Shown one piece after another: positions 5,401 to 48,703 of a DNA stretch of 64,000 nt. A program made the position numbers and the translations under genes. The stretch comes from Phalacrocorax aristotelis (Eukaryota; Chordata; Aves; Suliformes; Phalacrocoracidae). The stretch covers positions 248,001-312,000 of the forward strand of contig NC_134277.1 of the NCBI RefSeq assembly GCF_949628215.1, in the 5' to 3' direction. The notes beneath the pieces were generated by a model, which worked only from the letters and a program-made list of their open reading frames with translations, did not search any database and had not been told where the DNA came from. The first letter of the stretch is position 1. The number at the start of each line of letters is the position of its first letter.

Positions 5401-6854
5401 TCTCTGCGGCATATCGGGTGGGGAGGGTGGTCTCCCCCATTGACCCGCTCCAGCTCACCAGCAAGTACTGGGCTGAGGTCAGGGAGTGGGGTGAAACGCA
5501 ATGGCTGGTGAGATCCAGGGTGTTAGAGAAGCTCTAATAATGATAGTAAATATTGTATTAAAGCAAGGAACAAATCCCAAGCTCCCCGGCCAGCTTGCAG
5601 TTGCGTGTTGAAACATTCTGTGTGATCTGTAGGTCCCGAGTGAGGGTCCTAATAACAATTCAATAATAATTCAACCAGAGCCAGTGCGGGGTCCTGCCCC
5701 TGGGGAGGAACAGCCCCCCGCACCAGCACAGCCTGGGGGGGACCTGCTGGAGAGCGGCTCTGCTGAGAGGCCCTGGGGGTGCTGGGGGGCAGCGAGGTGA
5801 CCCTGAGCCAGCACCGGGCCCTTGGGGCCAAGGGGGCCAGCGGTGCCCTGGGGGGCATGGAAAGGCGTGTGGCCAGCAGGGCGAGGGAGGTTCTCCTCCC
5901 CCTCTGCTCTGCCCCAGTGAGGCCACACCTGGGGGGCTGCGGCCAGGTCTGGGCCCCCCAGTTCAAGAAGGGCAGGGAGCTGCTGGAGCAAGGCCAGCGC
6001 AGAGCTGCCAAGGTGATCAGGGGCTGGAGCATCTCCCTTGGGAGGAAAGGCTGAGAGACCTGGGCTTGTTCAGCCTGGGGAAGAGAAGGCTGAGGGGGGA
6101 TCTCCTCAATGCCTATAAATACCTGAAGGGTGGGTGTCAGGGGGATGGGGCCGGGCTCTTTTCAGCGGTGCCCAACGCCAGGCCAAGGGGCAACGGGCAC
6201 AAGCTGGAACACGGGAAGTTCCCCCTGAACGTGAGGACAAACCCCTTCCCTGTGCGGGTGCCAGAGCAGGGGCACAGGCTGCCCAGAGAGGCTGTGGGGT
6301 CCCTTCCCTGGAGACATTCACCCCCCGCCTGGACGCGGCCCTGTGCCCCTGCTCTGGGGGTGCCTGCTCCAGCAGGGGGTGGGACGGGGTGAGCTCCAGA
6401 GGGCCCTTCCCACCCCTGCCAGTCTGTGACTCTGTTCCCTGACGCCGTGTGCTCTCTCTGACTGCAGGTGGAGTACTACAACCATCACACGGCCACCTGG
6501 CACCCAGTCGCCAGCATGCTCAACAAGCGCTGCCGCCACGGAGCCGCCTCCCTGGGCAGCAAGATGTTCGTCTGCGGAGGCTACGACGGCTCGGGTTTCC
6601 TCAGCGTCGCCGAAGTCTACAGCTCCATGGCGGATCAGTGGTACCTGATCGTCCCTATGAACACCCGGCGGAGCCGCGTCTCCCTCGTTGCGAACTGTGG
6701 CCGCCTCTACGCGGTGGGGGGTTACGACGGACAGTCCAACCTCAGCTCGGTGGAGATGTACGACCCCGAGACAAACCGCTGGACGTTCATGGCCCCGATG
6801 GTGTGCCACGAGGGAGGGGTTGGCGTGGGCTGCATACCCCTCCTGACCATCTGA
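2404..6854 (+). CDS. KLHL18: KLHL18, 3' part (last three coding exons)
   Basis: Coding exons are 2404-2508, 2832-2943 and 6468-6854. All have GT donors and AG acceptors, and the phases match across both joins. They encode the last Kelch blades: GGYDG motifs follow IYVC, MFVC and LYAV strands, with one variant GGHDG blade, and the protein ends [10 protein letters not shown] before TGA, as I remember for human KLHL18. KLHL18 is a BTB-BACK-Kelch adaptor that brings substrates to the CUL3 E3 ubiquitin ligase; Aurora A and UNC119 are reported targets. The BTB and BACK exons must lie left of the window. The AG of the second exon's acceptor is CAAG rather than the usual CAG. The last intron carries CR1 fragments on both strands, one ending about 30 bp before the final exon. 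The 3' UTR probably continues past 6855; I saw no convincing AATAAA, so its end is open. Confidence 0.95.
3309..4412 (-). mobile_element. CR1 LINE fragment, antisense
   Basis: CR1 in reverse orientation in the KLHL18 intron between 2943 and 6468. Read on the - strand it starts in the reverse-transcriptase region ([13 protein letters not shown]-like), continues through a degenerate [20 protein letters not shown] stretch, and ends in the CR1 3' tail (complement of CTTGGAAAAGACCTCTGGGA). It is close to the copies at 17818-19270 and 52452-53302, so it belongs to the same subfamily. It is 5'-truncated. Confidence 0.9.
5660..6440 (+). mobile_element. CR1 LINE fragment beside the last KLHL18 exon
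   Basis: The end of CR1 ORF2 plus the 3' UTR, nearly identical to the copy at 24376-25142: both share the AACCAGAGCCAGTGCGGGGT start and the block around GGGCACAAGCTGGAACACGG. Its 3' end (GCCAGTCTGTGACTCTGTTC) lies about 30 bp upstream of the final KLHL18 exon acceptor, so it may contribute to the branch-point region. Confidence 0.9.
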
Positions 6855-9800: not shown

Positions 9801-10123
9801 CGGAGGAGCGGGACGTCGAGCGTGGCTGGATGGATCCCGGAGGCACCGGTTTTACCGTCCTGCCGCGAAATGGGGAGCGGGACAAAGGGAAGGGGCCGCG
9901 AAGGGGGGATCGGCCCAGGCGAGCCTCCGGCATCGCCGCATCCCAGCCAGATCCAGGCGAGCTCCCACCACGGCACCACGCCAAGGAAAACACCGGCAAC
10001 CCGATCCCTTCCCCGCCGCGGCGGGGGCCCGGTGTTTATCCTGGAGGCGAAGCCGGCCGAGCCGGGGGCCCCGAGCCGAGGTGACGGCCGATCCCCTCAT
10101 CCTCCCGCTTTCCCCGCGGCCGC
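6855..10123. other. KLHL18 3' UTR and intergenic DNA
   Basis: There is no protein-coding homology here. The first part probably belongs to the KLHL18 3' UTR. An AT-rich stretch at about 8424-8549, with TATATA runs, is followed by an A-rich run near 8608. From about 8700 the sequence becomes CpG-rich up to the cathelicidin-like gene. The longest + frame (9655-10785) overlaps exons 1-3 of that gene in another frame and is GC-driven noise. Confidence 0.6.
8424..8549. repeat. TA-rich low-complexity stretch
   Basis: Imperfect TATATA/TGTATA runs in otherwise GC-rich DNA. It could be an AU-rich block of the KLHL18 3' UTR or a plain microsatellite. Confidence 0.6.
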
Positions 10124-10981
10124 ATGGCGCTGGTGCTGGGAGCCGTGCTGCTGGCGGCGGGCGCCGCGGTCCCGCCGGGGCTGCCGGCTCCCCGCGACCT
10201 GGCTCGGTCGGTGCTGGAGACCCACGGGCAGGAGCTGCGGCTGCTCAAGCTGCTGGGAGTTGCCAGGACGGTAGGAGCGGGGTGGGCGATGCGGTGGGTG
10301 CAGCCGGGCACCCCCGGCTTGGGCACCCACCCCGGCACGGACCCCTTTCCCCCACCGGTGCTGAGGAGCCACCGACAGCTCCATCCTTTCCCCCCCCCCC
10401 CCACCGGCAGACGTTCGACTGGGGCACCCATTTCAGCATCAACTTCACCGCCCGCCAGCCCGCCTGCCCCAAAACCCTCGCCGACCGCCGCGGCGCCGGC
10501 TGCCAAACCCGGCCGGGCAGGGTAAGTGCGGGACCGGGTCCCCCCGAAACGCGGAGCGGGGACAGAAGGGTGTCCCCGAGGTGCTCAGGGTCGCTACGTC
10601 CCCCAGGTACAGCGGTGCACGGCCCAGGTCTCCGTCTTCGCCTTCCTGCCCGACGTGCCGCTGTCGATGGTGGAGTGTGGCCGGGAGTCGGTGAGGGCTT
10701 GGGGTCCCCCGTCCTCGGGGGGGAGCCAGCGGTGGGGACGTGCATCCCCCCACCACTTTGGGGGTGTTTTTTGGCCGTGGGGTGAAGCCTACCCTCATTT
10801 CTCCCCCCAGCAGCCCGGCAGCAGCACCCAGCCCCGCTCCCCCGGCACCCTGCGAGCCTTCGGCACCAGCCCTGGTCGCCCATCATCATCCTCGCAGCCA
10901 CCCCCACGACCTCGGCCACCTGCCGCCGCTTCCCTCCCGGGGACACCCCGTGGCCCCCTGACCCCTGCGGGGCTGGAATAA
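10124..10981 (+). CDS. Cathelicidin-like secreted protein with proline-rich tail
   Basis: Four exons, all phase 0: 10124-10270, 10411-10521, 10607-10690 and 10811-10981, giving about 170 residues. Exon count and phases equal those of the three cathelicidins next door. Exon 1 gives a hydrophobic signal peptide (VLGAVLLAAGAA) and a short helix LARSVLETHGQ resembling LAQAVDSFNQ of CATH2. Exon 2 has FSINFT and two cysteines; exon 3 has two more, with cathelin-like spacing (11 and 19 residues between pairs). Residues 115-170 replace the usual cationic helix: 15 Pro, 6 Arg and many Ser in 56 residues, including PPPRPRPP. The stop TAA lies inside the AATAAA signal (10977-10982). I do not know this gene by name. 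The four-cysteine core makes a cathelin/cystatin fold likely. Whether the tail is a Pro/Arg antimicrobial peptide, as in mammalian PR-39, is inference. No TATA box was seen. Confidence 0.72.
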
Positions 10982-10982
10982 A
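10977..10982 (+). terminator. Poly(A) signal overlapping the stop codon
   Basis: AATAAA in which TAA at 10979-10981 is the in-frame stop of the cathelicidin-like gene. The 3' UTR would therefore be only about 10-30 nt. Confidence 0.6.
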
Positions 10983-11143
10983 GATCTTTTGGGGTCATAC
11001 GTGTGCGAGTGTGGGGGTGACACAGGTTGGGGGCGGGGGGCACCCCCCAGCATTGGGCAACAGGGATGGGGCAAGCCTGGGGTTGTGCAAGCCGGGGGGG
11101 GCACCAACCCAATACGAGCGACATTCCCGGTGTCACCACAATC

Positions 11144-11676
11144 CCTGCGGGTCCCTGCGCCGCCCTGTCCCCCCCTGCACCCCGCCGGGGAGCGGGGACA
11201 GTCCCCAGGGGCTCACGGTCCCACAGACACCCCCAACCCCAGACGAGGGGCTCCGAGGGCTGGGGACACCCCACGAGCGGGGCCGTGTCCCCGAGGGGGA
11301 CCACACGTGCCACCGCCTGCCTGCGGGACACGCTCGGGACCCCCCAACCCCGTGTCTCCCCCCAAAAAAACTGCCACTCTGTGGGCTGGGGCCAGGCGTT
11401 TCCGGGGGGGGCAGCCGAGCCCCGGGGCGGGTTCCCCAACCTCCTGGCGGGGATAAAAGGGGCCGCGGGGGGTGGCGGTGGGGGACAAGGATGCCGAGCT
11501 CCTGGGTGCTGGTGCTGGCGGTGCTGGGGGGGGCCTGTGCCCTCCCCGCCCCGGCCCCCCTCGCCTACACCCAGGCGCTGGCCCAGGCCGTCGACTCCTT
11601 CAACCAGCGCCCCGAGGTGCAGAACGTCTTCAGGCTGCTCAGCGCCGACCCCGAGCCCAACCCGGTGAGTGCCACC
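11144..11676. repeat. Inverted-repeat arm 1 (CATH2 promoter and exon 1)
   Basis: This 533-bp segment is the reverse complement of 14798-15330. By eye I found two mismatches. It covers 347 bp upstream of the CATH2 ATG, all of exon 1 and the first 12 bases of intron 1. Similarity drops sharply at both edges, and exons 2-4 of the two genes are well diverged. Confidence 0.93.
11453..11459 (+). promoter_or_regulatory. TATA box of CATH2
   Basis: ATAAAAG 38 bp before the ATG. Identical position and flanks occur before the CATH3-type gene (inverted), and a similar box precedes the CATHB1-type gene. The 5' UTR must be very short. Confidence 0.75.
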
Positions 11677-12899
11677 CCACTCGTGACACCCCCACCCGCT
11701 CGTGACACCCCCCACCCACCCACCCACTCGTCACCCCACAGGGCGTCGACCTGAGCACGCTGCGGGGACTCAACTTCAGCATGATGGAGACGGAGTGCAC
11801 CCCGAGCATCCGGGTGAACCCCGACGACTGCGACTTCAAGGAGAATGGGGTGAGGATGAGGATGAGGAAGGGGGGGAACAGACACCAGGGGGGTCCTGGG
11901 TGTCCTCACCCGGCGTCCCCAGCGTGATGCTGAGTGTCCCCCCACCTTCCCAGGTCATCAAGGAGTGCTGGGGGCCGGTGCAGTTCCTGCAGACCTCCCC
12001 CGAGATCGATCTGCGCTGCACTGACGCCTCAAACGACGTGAGTTGGGGGGGCAGCACCCACTCCCAGCACCCACTGACCGCGTATGGGGGCACCCATCGG
12101 TGGGGTTTCGGGGTGCCAGCACTGATGTCCTTCCTCCTGCTCTGCATCTTGGGGGTTTACCGCCCCCAAAAGGGACCCTCCCAATGTCTCTGTCCCACCG
12201 AGATGGCTCCAGCCCGTGGGTGGTAGAGGGTGGGTTGGGGGGATCCTGGGCCACCCACAGGGTGCTGGGTGCAGGGTCCTGGGTCTTGCAAGGGGAGCAG
12301 GGACCCAGGTGTGGGGTCCCAGGTGTGGTTCCCGGGTACAGGGACTTGGGTGCTGGGAGCAGGGGCCTGGGTGCAGGGTGGTGGCTGCAGGGAATTTGGT
12401 GTGGGGTCCTGGCTGTGGGGTCCTGGCTGTGGGGACGTGGGTGCAGGGTGCTGGGTGCAGGCTCCTGAGCGTGGGGTCCCTGCTGTGGGTTCCTGGGTGT
12501 GGAATGCTGAGTGTGGGGTCCTGGGTGGGATCCCGGGTATGGATTCTTGGGTGTGGGATTCCAGGTGCAGGTGCAGGGTGCCGGGTGTGGGGTCCCGGGT
12601 GTGGGATCCCCAGTGTGGGCTCCTGGGTGTGGGGTCCCGGGTGTGGACTCTTGGGTGCAGGATCCCGGGTACAGGGTGCTGTGTCCCAGCTGTGGAAGGC
12701 TGGGTGCTGGGTCCCAGGTGTGGGGTCCCAGCCGTGGGGTCCCGAGCAGCCCCCGCCCACCCCAGTGACCCCGTTGTCCCTCTGGCAGCCGGTTCTCATC
12801 CAGCGGGGCCGGTTCGGGCGGTTCCTGGGCAGGATCCGACGCTTTCGGCCCAAGATCAGTATCCACATCCAAGCCAGCGGCTCCCTGCGCCTGGGCTGA
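11491..12899 (+). CDS. CATH2: Cathelicidin-2 precursor
   Basis: Exons 11491-11664, 11742-11849, 11954-12037 and 12789-12899, all phase 0, encode 158 residues. Residues 1-17 or so are a signal peptide. The cathelin pro-domain follows (SFNQRPEVQNVFRLLSADPE, then C-x10-C in exon 2 and C-x16-C in exon 3). Exon 4 encodes the peptide RFGRFLGRIRRFRPK followed by a ISIHI strand and a C-terminal Gly. It resembles chicken CATH2 (fowlicidin-2/CMAP27) but has two extra residues, net charge about +8 and no acidic residue. Family knowledge: the precursor is stored in heterophil granules, and elastase-type cleavage releases a broad antibacterial, LPS-binding peptide. The hinge Pro of RFRPK is kept. Intron 3 holds a minisatellite. 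AATAAA is at 12903-12908. Exon 1 and promoter are nearly identical to those of the CATH3-type gene. Confidence 0.96.
12236..12745. repeat. Minisatellite in CATH2 intron 3
   Basis: Imperfect G-rich units of about 12-15 bp around the core TGGGTGTGGGGTCC, repeated for roughly 500 bp. It makes intron 3 far longer than the other CATH2 introns (under 110 bp). Confidence 0.85.
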
Positions 12900-12902
12900 A
12901 CG

Positions 12903-12908
12903 AATAAA
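12903..12908 (+). terminator. Poly(A) signal of CATH2
   Basis: AATAAA four bases after the CATH2 stop codon. Confidence 0.75.
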
Positions 12909-14012
12909 GGGGCCGTGACGGCCGCTGTGCGTGAGCCGGGCTCCTCGCTGCCTCCGGGGTGCAGGGACGGGGGGGAAACTGAGGCACGCGGGGAGGGGGC
13001 GCGGGCAGGAGCCAGGTGGGCTCCTCTCCCCTCGTCACTTGCCGTCTCTGTGTGCAGCCCCCGTACCCCAGCACATCCCCGATGTCCCCACCGTGAGGAT
13101 CAAGGGCTTGGTCCCGAGGGAACGGGGGGGGCCGGCGTTGGGGACAGGGCCTGACTTTGCTCTGGGGAGCCCCCCAGGGGACCAACCCTCCCCCCCCCCC
13201 CCAAAAGAAGCCATTCACATCCCACCCCCCCATCGTCCCCACGGCGTCATTGTCCCCACGGCGTCATCGTCCCCCTGGCATTTTGTCCCCCCAAAACTGG
13301 TGGTGATGGCATGGGGGGTTGGCACCGGGGCTGTGTGCCCCCCTCCCAGGGAGGGCACAGAGGAGGGATGGGGTGGGGGGTTTCAGCTCCCACGAGACAC
13401 ACACCCCCCCCCCCAGGTGCACCCTTGCCCCAGGTGTTCGAGGCATCGACCTTGGCCACGTCACTGGGGCCGTCACCAGCAGTTTGGGACGGGGATGTTG
13501 GGACACGGGGACAGGGTGTGGGGGGACCCCCCATGACCTGAAAGCGGCCACCCCGGGGTGGTGGATGCAGCCCCATCTCCGGGGGCCCTGTGGGGCCCTG
13601 GGGATGTCCCTTCCTGTCCCCACCTGTGCCCTCCCACCCTCCCCCCATCCCCTCCCATCATCTCCCGTCCCCCCTGTCCCCTGCGATGGGCCAATGGTCC
13701 CAAGGGGTTCTGCCCCCCCTGCCATGGGGTCCCCCGCGCCTGGCACAGGCTCCCAGGGGACCCTCCGGTCCCCAAAGTGGGACAGTGGGGGGCTCAGTCC
13801 CAGGGCTGCGAGCCCCCGCATGAGGCCAGTGCCAGGATGAGGCCCCAGGGAGCTGGCGGTGTCCGATCCAGGGGGGTGACCCTGCTCCCCCCACCCCAGG
13901 ACTCTCCCCCATCAGCATCACCCCACCCCCCCAATCACCCACCCCATTTCTCCGAGCACGTTCCAGCGGGGTGACAACAGCAGGAAAAGGCAGAGCGGGG
14001 CTGGGAAGCAGC
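12909..14012. other. Spacer between converging CATH2 and CATH3 genes
   Basis: About 1.1 kb of very GC-rich DNA with C and G runs (for example 13190-13202 and 13404-13415). A short direct repeat, CCCACGGCGTCAT, occurs twice near 13240. I see no exon with cathelicidin cysteines or a cationic tail. Confidence 0.6.
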
Positions 14013-14018
14013 TTTATT
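14013..14018 (-). terminator. Poly(A) signal of the CATH3-type gene
   Basis: AATAAA on the - strand (TTTATT as written), 63 bp beyond the stop codon. Confidence 0.75.
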
Positions 14019-14080
14019 TGGGGAGGTGGGTGTCATAGGGGGGTCCCTGAGATGGCAGCACCTCAAGGAGGGGGGGAGTC

Positions 14081-14983
14081 TCACTTCCCCTTGATGGCCT
14101 TAAAGATGTTGATGGCGGTGGCCACCGTCTTGATGGCCACCCTCAGCAGCGGCCAGAAGCGCTTGACACGGACGGGCTGCGGGGAGAGGAGGCGTCATGG
14201 GGTGTGGGGGACCACGGGAACCCCCCCAGTTCCTCCCCTCCAGGCCCTGGGGTTGCCCCCACCCCCAGCCCTGGGCTCCCCCAACTCACATCCACGGTGG
14301 AATCCACGCAGGTGATGTCGAGCACGGGGTGGCCGCCACGCTGGGGCACGGGCACGGGCGCGGAGCAGTCCTTGATGACCTGCAGAGAGCCGGGGGGGGG
14401 CTGATTGCGGGGACACAGAGTCGGGGCGGGGCACCGTCCCCAGGCTGGGGACCCCACGGCAGGTGGGTGACCCCCCCTCCATGACCCCCCCCCAAGGCTC
14501 TCACCCCGTCATCCTTGAACTCGCAGCTGTCGGGGCGGGCGCCGGAGCGCACCGAGCATCGCGTCTCCATGATGGTGAAGTTGAGGCGCTGCAGGGAGCT
14601 GAGCTGGACGTCCTGCAGGGACGGGCACGGGCACGGGGATGGTGGCACCCGCCAGGGAGAGATGCCACCCATCACTGCGTGCCTGGACCCAACGTGGGGA
14701 GAGCATCCCCCTGCATCCCACCCCAAAACCTTCCACTGTGCGTTGGCTCTGGGACCTCCCCCATGTCCCCACGGGGACCCGGCGGTGTCCCCAGGGCGGT
14801 GGCACTCACCGGGTTGGGCTCGGGGTCGGCGCTGAGCAGCCTGAAGACGTTCTGCACCTCGGGGCGCTGGTTGAAGGAGTCGACGGCCTGGGCCAGCGCC
14901 TGGGTGTAGGCGAGGGGGGCCGGGGCGGGGAGGGCACAGGCCCCCCCCAGCACCGCCAGCACCAGCACCCAGGAGCTCGGCAT
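14081..14983 (-). CDS. CATH3: Cathelicidin-3-type precursor
   Basis: Exons in transcription order: 14983-14810, 14612-14505, 14379-14290 and 14176-14081, all phase 0, 155 residues. Exon 1 (58 residues) is identical in protein to that of CATH2. Exon 2 reads DVQLSSLQRLNFTIMETRC and ends in DDG; exon 3 has the second cysteine pair. Exon 4 encodes RVKRFWPLLRVAIKTVATAI followed by NIFKAIKGK, a 29-residue peptide of net charge about +8. The RVKRFWPL start and the length match chicken CATH3 (RVKRFWPLVPVAINTV...); it lacks the Pro found after WPLV there. Chicken CATH1 is a close relative, and I see only one gene of this CATH1/CATH3 type here. The peptide should be a membrane-active antibacterial helix released from heterophil granules. 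It lies 376 bp downstream of the CATHB1-type poly(A) signal, on the same strand. Confidence 0.95.
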
Positions 14984-15330
14984 CCTTGTCCCCCACCGCC
15001 ACCCCCCGCGGCCCCTTTTATCCCCGCCAGGAGGTTGGGGAACCCGCCCCGGGGCTCGGCTGCCCCCCCCGGAAACGCCTGGCCCCAGCCCACAGAGTGG
15101 CAGTTTTTTTGGGGGGAGACACGGGGTTGGGGGGTCCCGAGCGTGTCCCGCAGGCAGGCGGTGGCACGTCTGGTCCCCCTCGGGGACACGGCCCCGCTCG
15201 TGGGGTGTCCCCAGCCCTCGGAGCCCCTCGTCTGGGGTTGGGGGTGTCTGTGGGACCGTGAGCCCCTGGGGACTGTCCCCGCTCCCCGGCGGGGCGCAGG
15301 GGGGGACAGGGCGGCGCAGGGACCCGCAGG
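14798..15330. repeat. Inverted-repeat arm 2 (CATH3 promoter and exon 1)
   Basis: Reverse complement of 11144-11676; the two arms are separated by 3121 bp. The outer edge is only 26 bp from the CATHB1-type poly(A) signal, so the repeat contains the whole CATH3 promoter but none of the CATHB1-type transcript. Confidence 0.93.
15015..15021 (-). promoter_or_regulatory. TATA box of the CATH3-type gene
   Basis: ATAAAAG on the - strand, 38 bp before the ATG, mirror image of the CATH2 box. Confidence 0.75.
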
Positions 15331-15356
15331 GTGACACCAGGAGTGTTGCAGGGACA

Positions 15357-15362
15357 TTTATT
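15357..15362 (-). terminator. Poly(A) signal of the CATHB1-type gene
   Basis: AATAAA on the - strand (TTTATT as written), 63 bp beyond the stop codon. Confidence 0.75.
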
Positions 15363-15424
15363 GCAAGCAGAGTGCCCGGGTGGGGGCCAAATGGTCGGGG
15401 GGACATGGCGATGGCGGTGCCCAC

Positions 15425-16474
15425 TCAAGCTTTGGGTTTTTTGAGGTTGAGCTTGTCGCGGATCCAGATCTTGCTGCACTGGAAGAAGCCCCTGAAACGC
15501 TCCCGGAGCCTGCCAAAAAAGTCCCTGATCTTGGATTTCCGCGTACGGCCGAGCTGGGAGGAGAAGCAGCAGTGTCAAACCTTGGGGTTTTGGAGGGGGT
15601 GGGGTGTCTTGGTGACCCCCCTCCTGGGGACGTGCCACCCCCAAGGCAGCCGGGGAGGGGAGCGGGGTGACACGGTGGGGTCGGTGCCATTTTGGGCACC
15701 TTCTTACCGTGGTGGGCACCTTCTCACAGGAGAGCTCGACCACGGGCTGCTGCTGCTCGAGGAAGACGGAGCCCTGGCACCAACTCACCGGCTGTGGGGA
15801 AGCAGAGGGAGAGATGGGAAAGTTGCAACCGAAGGGAGCCCCAAAACCCACCCCCCCCCCAGTGCCTCAGTTTCCCCATGGGCTGCTCCCCAACCCCCCG
15901 TCGGGGTCGATGCTGGACAGGGGATGAAGCCTCACCGCGAGCCAGCGGCTCCTGCAGGCGGCGTTGGCCATCCCCGGCGCCCGGCACAAGGTCTCCTCAA
16001 CGGTGAAGCTCAGCTCCTGCCGGCGTTGCAGGTCTCCGGTCTGGGAGAGGGGACAGGATCCGTCAGGGACCCACGGCACCGCTGTCCCCAGCGCCCAGCC
16101 CCCCAAAAAGTGGGATCCAGCCCTGAGAGGGGCCACATCCAGCCTGGAGATGGGGCAAACCCAGCCCCAAAACGGGTCAGACGGAGCCCTGGGAAGGGCC
16201 CGGTGCGTCTCCCGGGATGGAGGAGCTCCGCACTCACCCAGCCGGGCTGGGGGTGGGCCTCCTGGAGCTGCAGGACGTAGGGACTGACGGCCCTGGCGTT
16301 GAGCAGCTCCACGGCTGCCGAGACAACATCCTCATAGCTCACGACCCAAACCCCCGCCGGGGTCGGCAGGAAGGATCCATCCAAGCCTGGCGTGGATTCA
16401 TCCGGCTCCGGCGTGGTGGCTCTGGCCAGCCCCAGCAGCAGGAGGAACAGCAGCACCGCTCGGCACGGCCTCAT
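15425..16474 (-). CDS. CATHB1: Cathelicidin-B1-type precursor
   Basis: Exons in transcription order: 16474-16238, 16040-15936, 15791-15708 and 15553-15425, all phase 0, 184 residues from the ATG at 16474. An in-frame ATG at 16489 would add MAGGR. Signal peptide RAVLLFLLLLGLARA. Exon 1 continues with an acidic/Pro stretch, then VVSYEDVVSAAVELLNARAV, a divergent cathelin helix. Exons 2 and 3 each bring two cysteines (C-x9-C, C-x16-C). Exon 4 encodes 42 residues of net charge about +12: SKIRDFFGRLRERFRGFF, a lone Cys, then IWIRDKLNLKKPKA. I assign it to CATHB1 by the aberrant exon 1 and cluster position. The mature peptide does not resemble the Trp-rich chicken CATHB1 peptide, so orthology is less certain than for CATH2 and CATH3. 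Chicken CATHB1 is known for bursal M-cell expression. The cleavage site is unclear. Confidence 0.85.
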
Positions 16475-16508
16475 CCTGCCTCCTGCCACCCGCCGTGCTG
16501 CGGAGCCC

Positions 16509-16515
16509 CTTTTAT
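16509..16515 (-). promoter_or_regulatory. TATA box of the CATHB1-type gene
   Basis: ATAAAAG on the - strand, 41 bp before the ATG at 16474, the same word as in CATH2 and CATH3. Confidence 0.7.
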
Positions 16516-17374
16516 GGGCGCTGCCGTGGACGTGCCGGCGGCACCTTCACGGGCGTTCCCCAACATTGATGCTTCCCCCTCATGCTTCCAGGAAATACCC
16601 AGTGGGCTGAATCTGGCCGGGAGCCGAGTCCGTCCCCGTTTGGCCCCCAGGCCACCGGAATGGCTGTCCCAGGCCCCGCGACGGGTGCTGCCGGCCACCT
16701 CCGGGGCTCAGCAGAAGGAAGGCCACAGGGTTTGGGGTCTCCCTGCCACAGGAGTCCCTGTGGGAGGACACCGCATCCCCAGGGAGGGTGACAGCGAGGA
16801 CACGGGTGGAATTTAGTCACAACATGGCCACGGAGGTGGTCCGGGTACCACCAACCACCGTGCCAGGGCGGGGAGACCACCAAAGAGCCAGCCTGGGTCG
16901 GATGGGGATGTAGGGTGACACCACGTTGGGTTTCTCATCCCCCCTGTCCTCCCACGGGTCTGGGTAAAGAGGCCACCCTGCCTCGTGGCTGGGGCTTTCC
17001 AGCCCCCGGAGGTGTTTTATGGTTGGGCGGAGCAGCAGAGACATCTGTCCTTCACGGCAAACAAGCTGGGTTTGACCAAACACCAGCCTCGGAAGTGTTC
17101 ACCCTCTCTGAGGCCAAGCAGGAACATCCAGGAGGACATCGAGGCACCCTGCCCAGAAGATGACCCCCTGTTCAACCCCTGTCAGCACTGCAGTGCGCAG
17201 TGAGGGGAAGCCCAAAGCCACCCAACAGGTTCGGAGCTCCTGGCCGGTGAAGACCATCAAGTACGTTCTCCCAGAGGCCCATAAATCAAGCACGGACAAG
17301 CTGGCCCAGGTCAGAACTGGTGGAAAGTCCCCATGGACGGATGCCATCAATCACAGACCCGTAGGACAGCCCAG
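16516..17374. other. Upstream region of the CATHB1-type gene, nothing recognised
   Basis: No exon or repeat could be supported. It presumably holds upstream control sequence of the CATHB1-type gene, but I cannot point to sites. Confidence 0.5.

Positions 17375-39951: not shown

Positions 39952-48703
<8,752 letters not shown>

Follow-up and report, generated by a model that had tools for sequence, protein, structure and literature searches.

A gene beside the cathelicidin cluster

Bird cathelicidin clusters are described with a small set of genes, and the locus analyzed here raises the question of whether an additional gene lying beside them is a further cathelicidin, in particular one releasing a proline-rich antimicrobial peptide. 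The bird cathelicidin survey, in the text available of it, names CATH1-3 and CATHB1 only and gives the order KLHL18, CATHL2, CATHL3, CATHB1 for most surveyed birds; because the region is hard to assemble, it recovered cathelicidins from 21 of 53 species (PMC4571063). Our window, the 64,000 nucleotides at C2:248001-312000 in a genome of 1.28 Gb (352 contigs), has the published order plus one extra gene, here gene A, adjoining the kelch gene. The features, in window coordinates, are as follows.

6462..6854, + strand: last kelch exon of the upstream neighbor (Pfam Kelch_1, E 1.2e-36 on 6462-6851)
9924..10123, + strand: 200 nt upstream of gene A, with no match to the TATA-like search pattern; CpG observed/expected (o/e) 0.96
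10124-10981, + strand: gene A, four exons, one open frame of 170 residues
10124..10270, + strand: gene A exon 1 (49 codons, 147 nt), signal-peptide-like start and beginning of a cystatin/cathelin-fold domain; donor ACG/gtagga
10411..10521, + strand: gene A exon 2 (37 codons, 111 nt), F-x-WG-x-HFS-x-NFT, cysteines 1 and 2
10607..10690, + strand: gene A exon 3 (28 codons, 84 nt), cysteines 3 and 4, AQVSV..F.PD.PL..V
10811..10981, + strand: gene A exon 4 (56 codons and TAA, 171 nt), putative C-terminal tail rich in Pro, Ser/Thr and Arg
10977..10982, + strand: AATAAA that overlaps the TAA stop and precedes a GT-rich stretch, the probable end of the gene A transcript
11491..12899, + strand: gene B, CATH2-like, exons 11491-11664, 11742-11849, 11954-12037 and 12789-12899
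14081..14983, - strand: gene C, CATH3-like cathelicidin
15425..16474, - strand: gene D, CATHB1-like (Pfam PF00666, E 2.6e-10)

We take the kelch gene to be KLHL18, a name in keeping with published synteny (PMC4571063). Exons 1-3 of gene B match Pfam PF00666 with an E value of 4.4e-25, and AATAAA also lies three bases 3' of its stop codon.

The four phase-0 exons of gene A are present where an earlier note on this DNA had placed them: all borders are GT-AG, and the spliced frame runs through 170 residues with no stop or frameshift and with four cysteines kept. Judged by eye, the start is signal-peptide-like, as that note had also held. The four-exon, phase-0 layout with the domain on exons 1-3 is one of the criteria for a cathelicidin, and gene A has it. 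Codon log-odds in the chosen frame are 0.253, 0.322 and 0.366 per codon for exons 1, 2 and 3, the other two frames being negative; these values are somewhat favored because the same exons were part of the training set for the codon table (as was exon 4 of genes B, C and D, gene A exon 4 being excluded). GC3 in the three exons is 0.90-0.93. Gene A is probably a real gene, and its first three exons look like true coding sequence. Intron 3 (10691-10810, 120 nt) is also free of in-frame stops, and its retention would therefore add 40 residues without a frameshift.

A genome-wide DNA search for copies of gene A returned a single match, gene A itself. A Pfam-family search of the genome for paralogs returned two matches, exon 1 of gene B and exon 1 of gene C; its sensitivity is low, since genes A and D were missed. 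No relative was confirmed among 40 and 58 pattern matches in prokaryote and virus collections, as expected.

Several other features of the window were observed. At 43552-45521 (+ strand), a long open frame contains a 57-bp repeat of 19 codons in about 35 copies; it belongs to a gene, presumably NACAD-like, that terminates in a NAC domain. Genes B and C share an inverted stretch (11118-11693 and 14781-15349, 576 and 569 bp, 97% identity) that covers promoter and exon 1; their exon-1 proteins are identical and their later exons differ, a pattern that, read from the sequence, indicates that the 5' end was recently duplicated or copied by gene conversion. In gene D, a single PGLDGS-type octamer precedes the cathelin domain (16238-16474, - strand). 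A nine-fold repeat in chicken CATHB1 is reported only in chicken and turkey in the available text of the survey (PMC4571063), and the single octamer of gene D may represent its single-copy starting state.

The closest relative found is a Komodo dragon protein

We compared gene A with its cluster neighbors and with one external relative, Komodo dragon Cathelicidin2 (VK-CATH2; sequence from PMC6716921). The local alignment score of gene A with VK-CATH2 is 189 (z 36; 0 of 1000 shuffles as good), with 46% identity over the alignment of exons 1-3. Against genes B, C and D the scores are 39, 37 and 33 (z 2.5, 2.1 and 1.0), values equaled by 22, 45 and 152 of 1000 shuffles. Two other Komodo cathelicidins score 46 and 58 (z 4.9 and 7.6; 0 of 1000 shuffles each), the second of these, Komodo 4.2, being the second-best partner of gene A. 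Conversely, gene A is the best of six other partners for VK-CATH2 (189), followed by gene C (143), gene B (125), the other Komodo genes (124 and 122) and gene D (70). With VK-CATH2 as a query, tblastn matched exon 2 of gene A (37.0 bits) and, following it in order, exon 3 (38.5 bits, 57.7% over 26 aa); exons of B and C were matched more weakly (24.6-31.2 bits), and the best match in 30 block shuffles of the first 20 kb of the window reached 23.5 bits.

By sequence, gene A is thus far closer to VK-CATH2 than to its neighbors; VK-CATH2, for its part, is evidently related to the cathelicidins. Since it also clearly resembles genes C and B, features retained from a common ancestor could account for its likeness to gene A. 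On Pfam, VK-CATH2 exceeds the cut-offs for both Cathelicidins (2.3e-13, 50.8 bits) and Cystatin (5.7e-8, 33.3 bits; cut-off 22.2), whereas gene A falls below them, scoring 13.4 bits (E 0.1) on PF00666 against a cut-off of 21. A search of PDB with gene A alone gave three sequences up to E 10, all of them cathelins (E 0.22-0.95). In the same database, a profile built from gene A and VK-CATH2 ranked three cathelins first and chemerin next (0.0013), with cystatins behind them (0.021 at best).

The two proteins share F-x-WG-x-HFS-x-NFT, a C-x19-C last hairpin with AQVSV..F.PD.PL..V, and a domain net charge of +5, and among six motif strings drawn from them the only literature match was the Komodo dragon paper. 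VK-CATH2 likewise belongs to a cathelicidin cluster and has a tail of similar length after the last cysteine (56 residues, 60 in gene A). It differs from gene A in its tail, which is unrelated in sequence, carries a net charge of +2 and is not Pro/Arg-rich, and in having 6 more residues after helix 1. Its describers predicted that it carries no antimicrobial peptide, and the available text of their paper places the anole cluster between FASTK and KLHL18 and the Komodo cluster at a scaffold end (PMC6716921). Anole Ac-CATH-3, listed as encoding no active peptide in the accessible portion of PMC4078517, may be another relative of gene A.

Gene A falls outside the classical cathelicidins

One alternative is that gene A is a recent, fast-diverged tandem copy of the CATH2, CATH3 or CATHB1 neighbor. 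It does share with these genes its cluster and the same four phase-0 exons. The exon pattern is not specific, however, because introns 1 and 2 of this bird's chemerin are also in phase 0, at places that match those of gene A by eye. The protein similarity to B, C and D given above is near chance, and within 11021-17000 the best DNA match of gene A covers 43 bp at 77% (E 0.005).

Trees argue in the same direction. A 12-row tree comprised gene A, VK-CATH2, genes B, C and D, two Komodo cathelicidins, human CAMP, protegrin, human chemerin, and cystatins F and 8; a 13-row tree added bird chemerin, and a 14-row tree also added a provisional sequence of mouse NGP (neutrophilic granule protein). The seven classical cathelicidins (B, C, D, Komodo 4.1 and 4.2, CAMP and protegrin) form a clade without gene A and VK-CATH2, with support of 96/99 in 12 rows and 90/94 in 13, values from trees of few rows with long branches. 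The same clade is recovered in 14 rows (89/99), with the provisional NGP sequence on the classical side. A clade of gene A with B, C and D is rejected (p-AU 4.75e-6 and 1.2e-7), as is one of gene A with B and C (p-AU 0.001). Together, the protein scores, the clade tests and the DNA match rule out a recent local duplicate of gene B, C or D as a serious candidate, and we consider this origin very improbable. The broader proposal that gene A is an avian cathelicidin is not supported either, given its position outside the classical clade and its score below the Pfam cut-off.

Where gene A belongs within the wider superfamily is less fixed. It pairs with VK-CATH2 in the 12-row tree (support 38/0), the two are not sisters in the 13-row tree, where constraining them to pair gives p-AU 0.239, and gene A groups weakly with chemerin in the 14-row tree (40/50). 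A group of gene A, VK-CATH2 and the chemerins has p-AU 0.19; gene A alone as sister of the seven classical proteins has p-AU 0.478, and VK-CATH2 alone in that place 0.507. None of these four arrangements is rejected. Grouping gene A, VK-CATH2 and NGP is weakly rejected (p-AU 0.03, with the provisional NGP sequence). The branch of gene A is 0.56-1.13 long, versus 0.04-0.10 for VK-CATH2, whose nearly zero branch attaches where cystatins, chemerin and cathelicidins meet; with few rows and long branches, this placement is a hint and not a result. Orthology of gene A and VK-CATH2 is likely, although the trees place gene A variably.

Domain features set gene A apart from a peptide propiece

The earlier note had described four cysteines at cathelin spacing. 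All four are present, but their spacing is 11-9-19, compared with 9 or 10, 10, and 16 to 18 in the seven classical cathelicidins, and the last pair is cystatin-like. This pair spans 19 residues in gene A, VK-CATH2, cystatin F and cystatin-8 (the two type-2 cystatins compared), versus 16, 18, 16, 16, 17, 16 and 16 in the classical proteins.

The likeness to type-2 cystatins extends to a first-loop glycine, as in cystatin F. In alignments made by eye, the Q-x-V-x-G loop reads TFDWG in gene A, with the glycine kept and Q and V lost; the glycine is not specific, because it stands at the same place in chemerin, protegrin and one Komodo cathelicidin. The second-loop PW corresponds to AF in gene A and NF in VK-CATH2. 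Neither inhibitory loop was found in the gene A alignment, and inhibition of papain-type proteases in the manner of cystatins is therefore unlikely. Gene A further differs from type-2 cystatins in having a fourth exon that encodes a tail.

Classical cathelicidins resemble gene A in their cathelin-like domain with four cysteines, and genes B, C and D also in their four exons and shared cluster. What distinguishes genes B, C and D is an anionic propiece joined to a cationic peptide: net charges of domain and tail are -9/+9, -5/+8 and -8/+12, respectively, in line with the published means of -5.24/+8.51 for propiece and peptide in 24 bird cathelicidins (PMC4571063). Gene A, at +5/+5, has no anionic propiece to balance a cationic peptide, and neither the charge of its domain nor that of VK-CATH2 (+5/+2) follows the classical pattern. 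The promoters differ as well. A TATA-like box lies 39, 39 and 42 bases before the ATG in B, C and D, and none was found by the same pattern in the 200 nt upstream of gene A; promoter CpG o/e is 0.96 in gene A versus 0.60, 0.60 and 0.67. The promoters of B and C count as one case, since they are shared by recent copying.

Chemerin and NGP offer further comparisons. Chemerin, like the product proposed for gene A, is a secreted cystatin-fold immune regulator, is reached by the joint profile, and is activated by C-terminal trimming according to the available text of PMC5744648; gene A lacks its CLAC cysteine and its C-terminus. Gene A is not chemerin itself, as a chemerin-like (RARRES2-like) gene sits elsewhere in the genome, at about 1045704-1047144 of C2, the contig that also carries the cathelicidin cluster, 0.79 Mb away. 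Exon 3 of this chemerin-like gene seems frameshifted in this assembly. NGP is likewise a cystatin-superfamily protein, and differs from gene A in that the provisional mouse sequence groups with the classical cathelicidins. The accessible part of PMC12006171 reports NGP as neither cleaved nor antimicrobial, places marsupial NGP-like genes at the KLHL18 end of the cluster, and describes cationic tails in some of them, one of which is active.

Exon 4 and the proposed proline-rich peptide

The last exon encodes what the earlier note had read from it: 56 codons with 15 Pro, 6 Arg and one Glu, including PPPRPRPP. That note had also suggested an undescribed avian cathelicidin, and a true cathelicidin would release a Pro/Arg-rich antimicrobial peptide from this exon, as PR-39 and Bac5 are released. 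The position of the exon, the place of the gene in the cluster, and a tail of net charge +5 with 15 Pro in 56 residues all suit this idea. So does the rarity of the motif, since PPPRPRPP arose in 1 of 5000 base shuffles of the exon and PRPRPP in 22, with the qualification that the motif was chosen post hoc, after the sequence had been seen; the short PRP arose in 1970.

The proline content itself requires no such explanation. Exon 4 is 50% C, and base shuffles average 14.6 prolines against the 15 observed, with at least 15 in 1030 of 2000, leaving no excess over base composition. All three forward frames are similarly proline-rich (15/56, 15/49 and 13/56). No codon signal was found in any of the six frames (-0.355 in the chosen frame, -0.126 to -0.437 in the other five), and GC3 is 0.70, compared with 0.86, 0.94 and 0.79 for exon 4 of B, C and D. 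Ser and Thr make up 25% of the tail, a content unlike that of PR-39 and Bac5. By eye, there is no VRR-like site, a criterion taken from the available text of PMC6716921, 3' of the last cysteine. With a cationic rather than anionic domain and a place outside the cathelicidin clade, and with no likeness to the VK-CATH2 tail in any forward frame (1081, 651 and 1156 of 2000 shuffles as good), the proposed proline-rich cathelicidin is not borne out. Composition, codon signal and charge rule it out as the main reading despite the rare motif, and we regard a peptide of this kind as distinctly unlikely.

The frame assigned to exon 4 was tested against its alternatives. Offset 1 stops after 49 codons and offset 2 is open to the exon end; neither resembles the VK-CATH2 tail. 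The earlier note had argued that no acceptor would join another frame in phase. Other frames do have AG sites, so that this argument needs qualifying, yet the most pyrimidine-rich of the exon 4 AG sites (fraction 0.90, ending at 10810) fits the chosen frame. Because composition explains the prolines and the tail has no likeness to that of VK-CATH2, the tail, as judged from its sequence, either changes fast or matters little.

The same tail could reflect decay, with gene A a former VK-CATH2-like gene under relaxed constraint and not yet broken. The long branch of gene A, the loss of 6 residues after helix 1, and an exon 4 with neither codon signal nor lizard-tail likeness are what such a gene might show. 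A decaying gene would, however, sit poorly with the intact spliced frame, the kept cysteines and GT-AG sites, the strong codon signal of exons 1-3, the polyadenylation signal in place, and upstream CpG that is not depleted (o/e 0.96). We consider decay unlikely, with somewhat more in its favor than in that of a released peptide.

A possibly older member of the family

The reading that we favor, and hold to be probable with real room for doubt, is that gene A, intact in this bird, belongs to a sauropsid lineage of which VK-CATH2 is the sole other member found in this analysis, and that it encodes a secreted regulator of cystatin/cathelin fold and not a peptide propiece. With the same degree of confidence, and as part of the same reading, we place it in one superfamily with cathelicidins, NGP and chemerin and outside the classical cathelicidin group compared. 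Its product would be secreted with a two-disulfide cystatin fold, and would act whole or after trimming of its fast-changing tail. By analogy with NGP or chemerin, it might serve in immune regulation, and its domain would not be a propiece that stores an antimicrobial peptide. The earlier note had offered, as a second option, a cathelin-fold protein that lost its antimicrobial peptide; the fold comes close, but the gene may never have had such a peptide to lose. A bolder and rather doubtful extension is that the cluster gene of birds and lizards is a remnant of a stage between cystatins, chemerin and cathelicidins, one that never had a peptide, and that cathelicidins arose from its kind by gaining the exon 4 peptide.

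An apparent relative has already been published in the Komodo dragon, and in the open-access papers searched we found no bird gene described between KLHL18 and CATH2. Gene A may already stand under an automatic label such as "cathelicidin-like."

Gene A looks less like a new peptide antibiotic than like an old offshoot of this immune family. If it is real across birds, the cathelicidin cluster would include a member of different build that may also be older, and reptile genes named "cathelicidin" would include proteins of another kind. The order in which peptide, charge balance and TATA-like promoter were gained would then become testable against chemerin, NGP and the cystatins.
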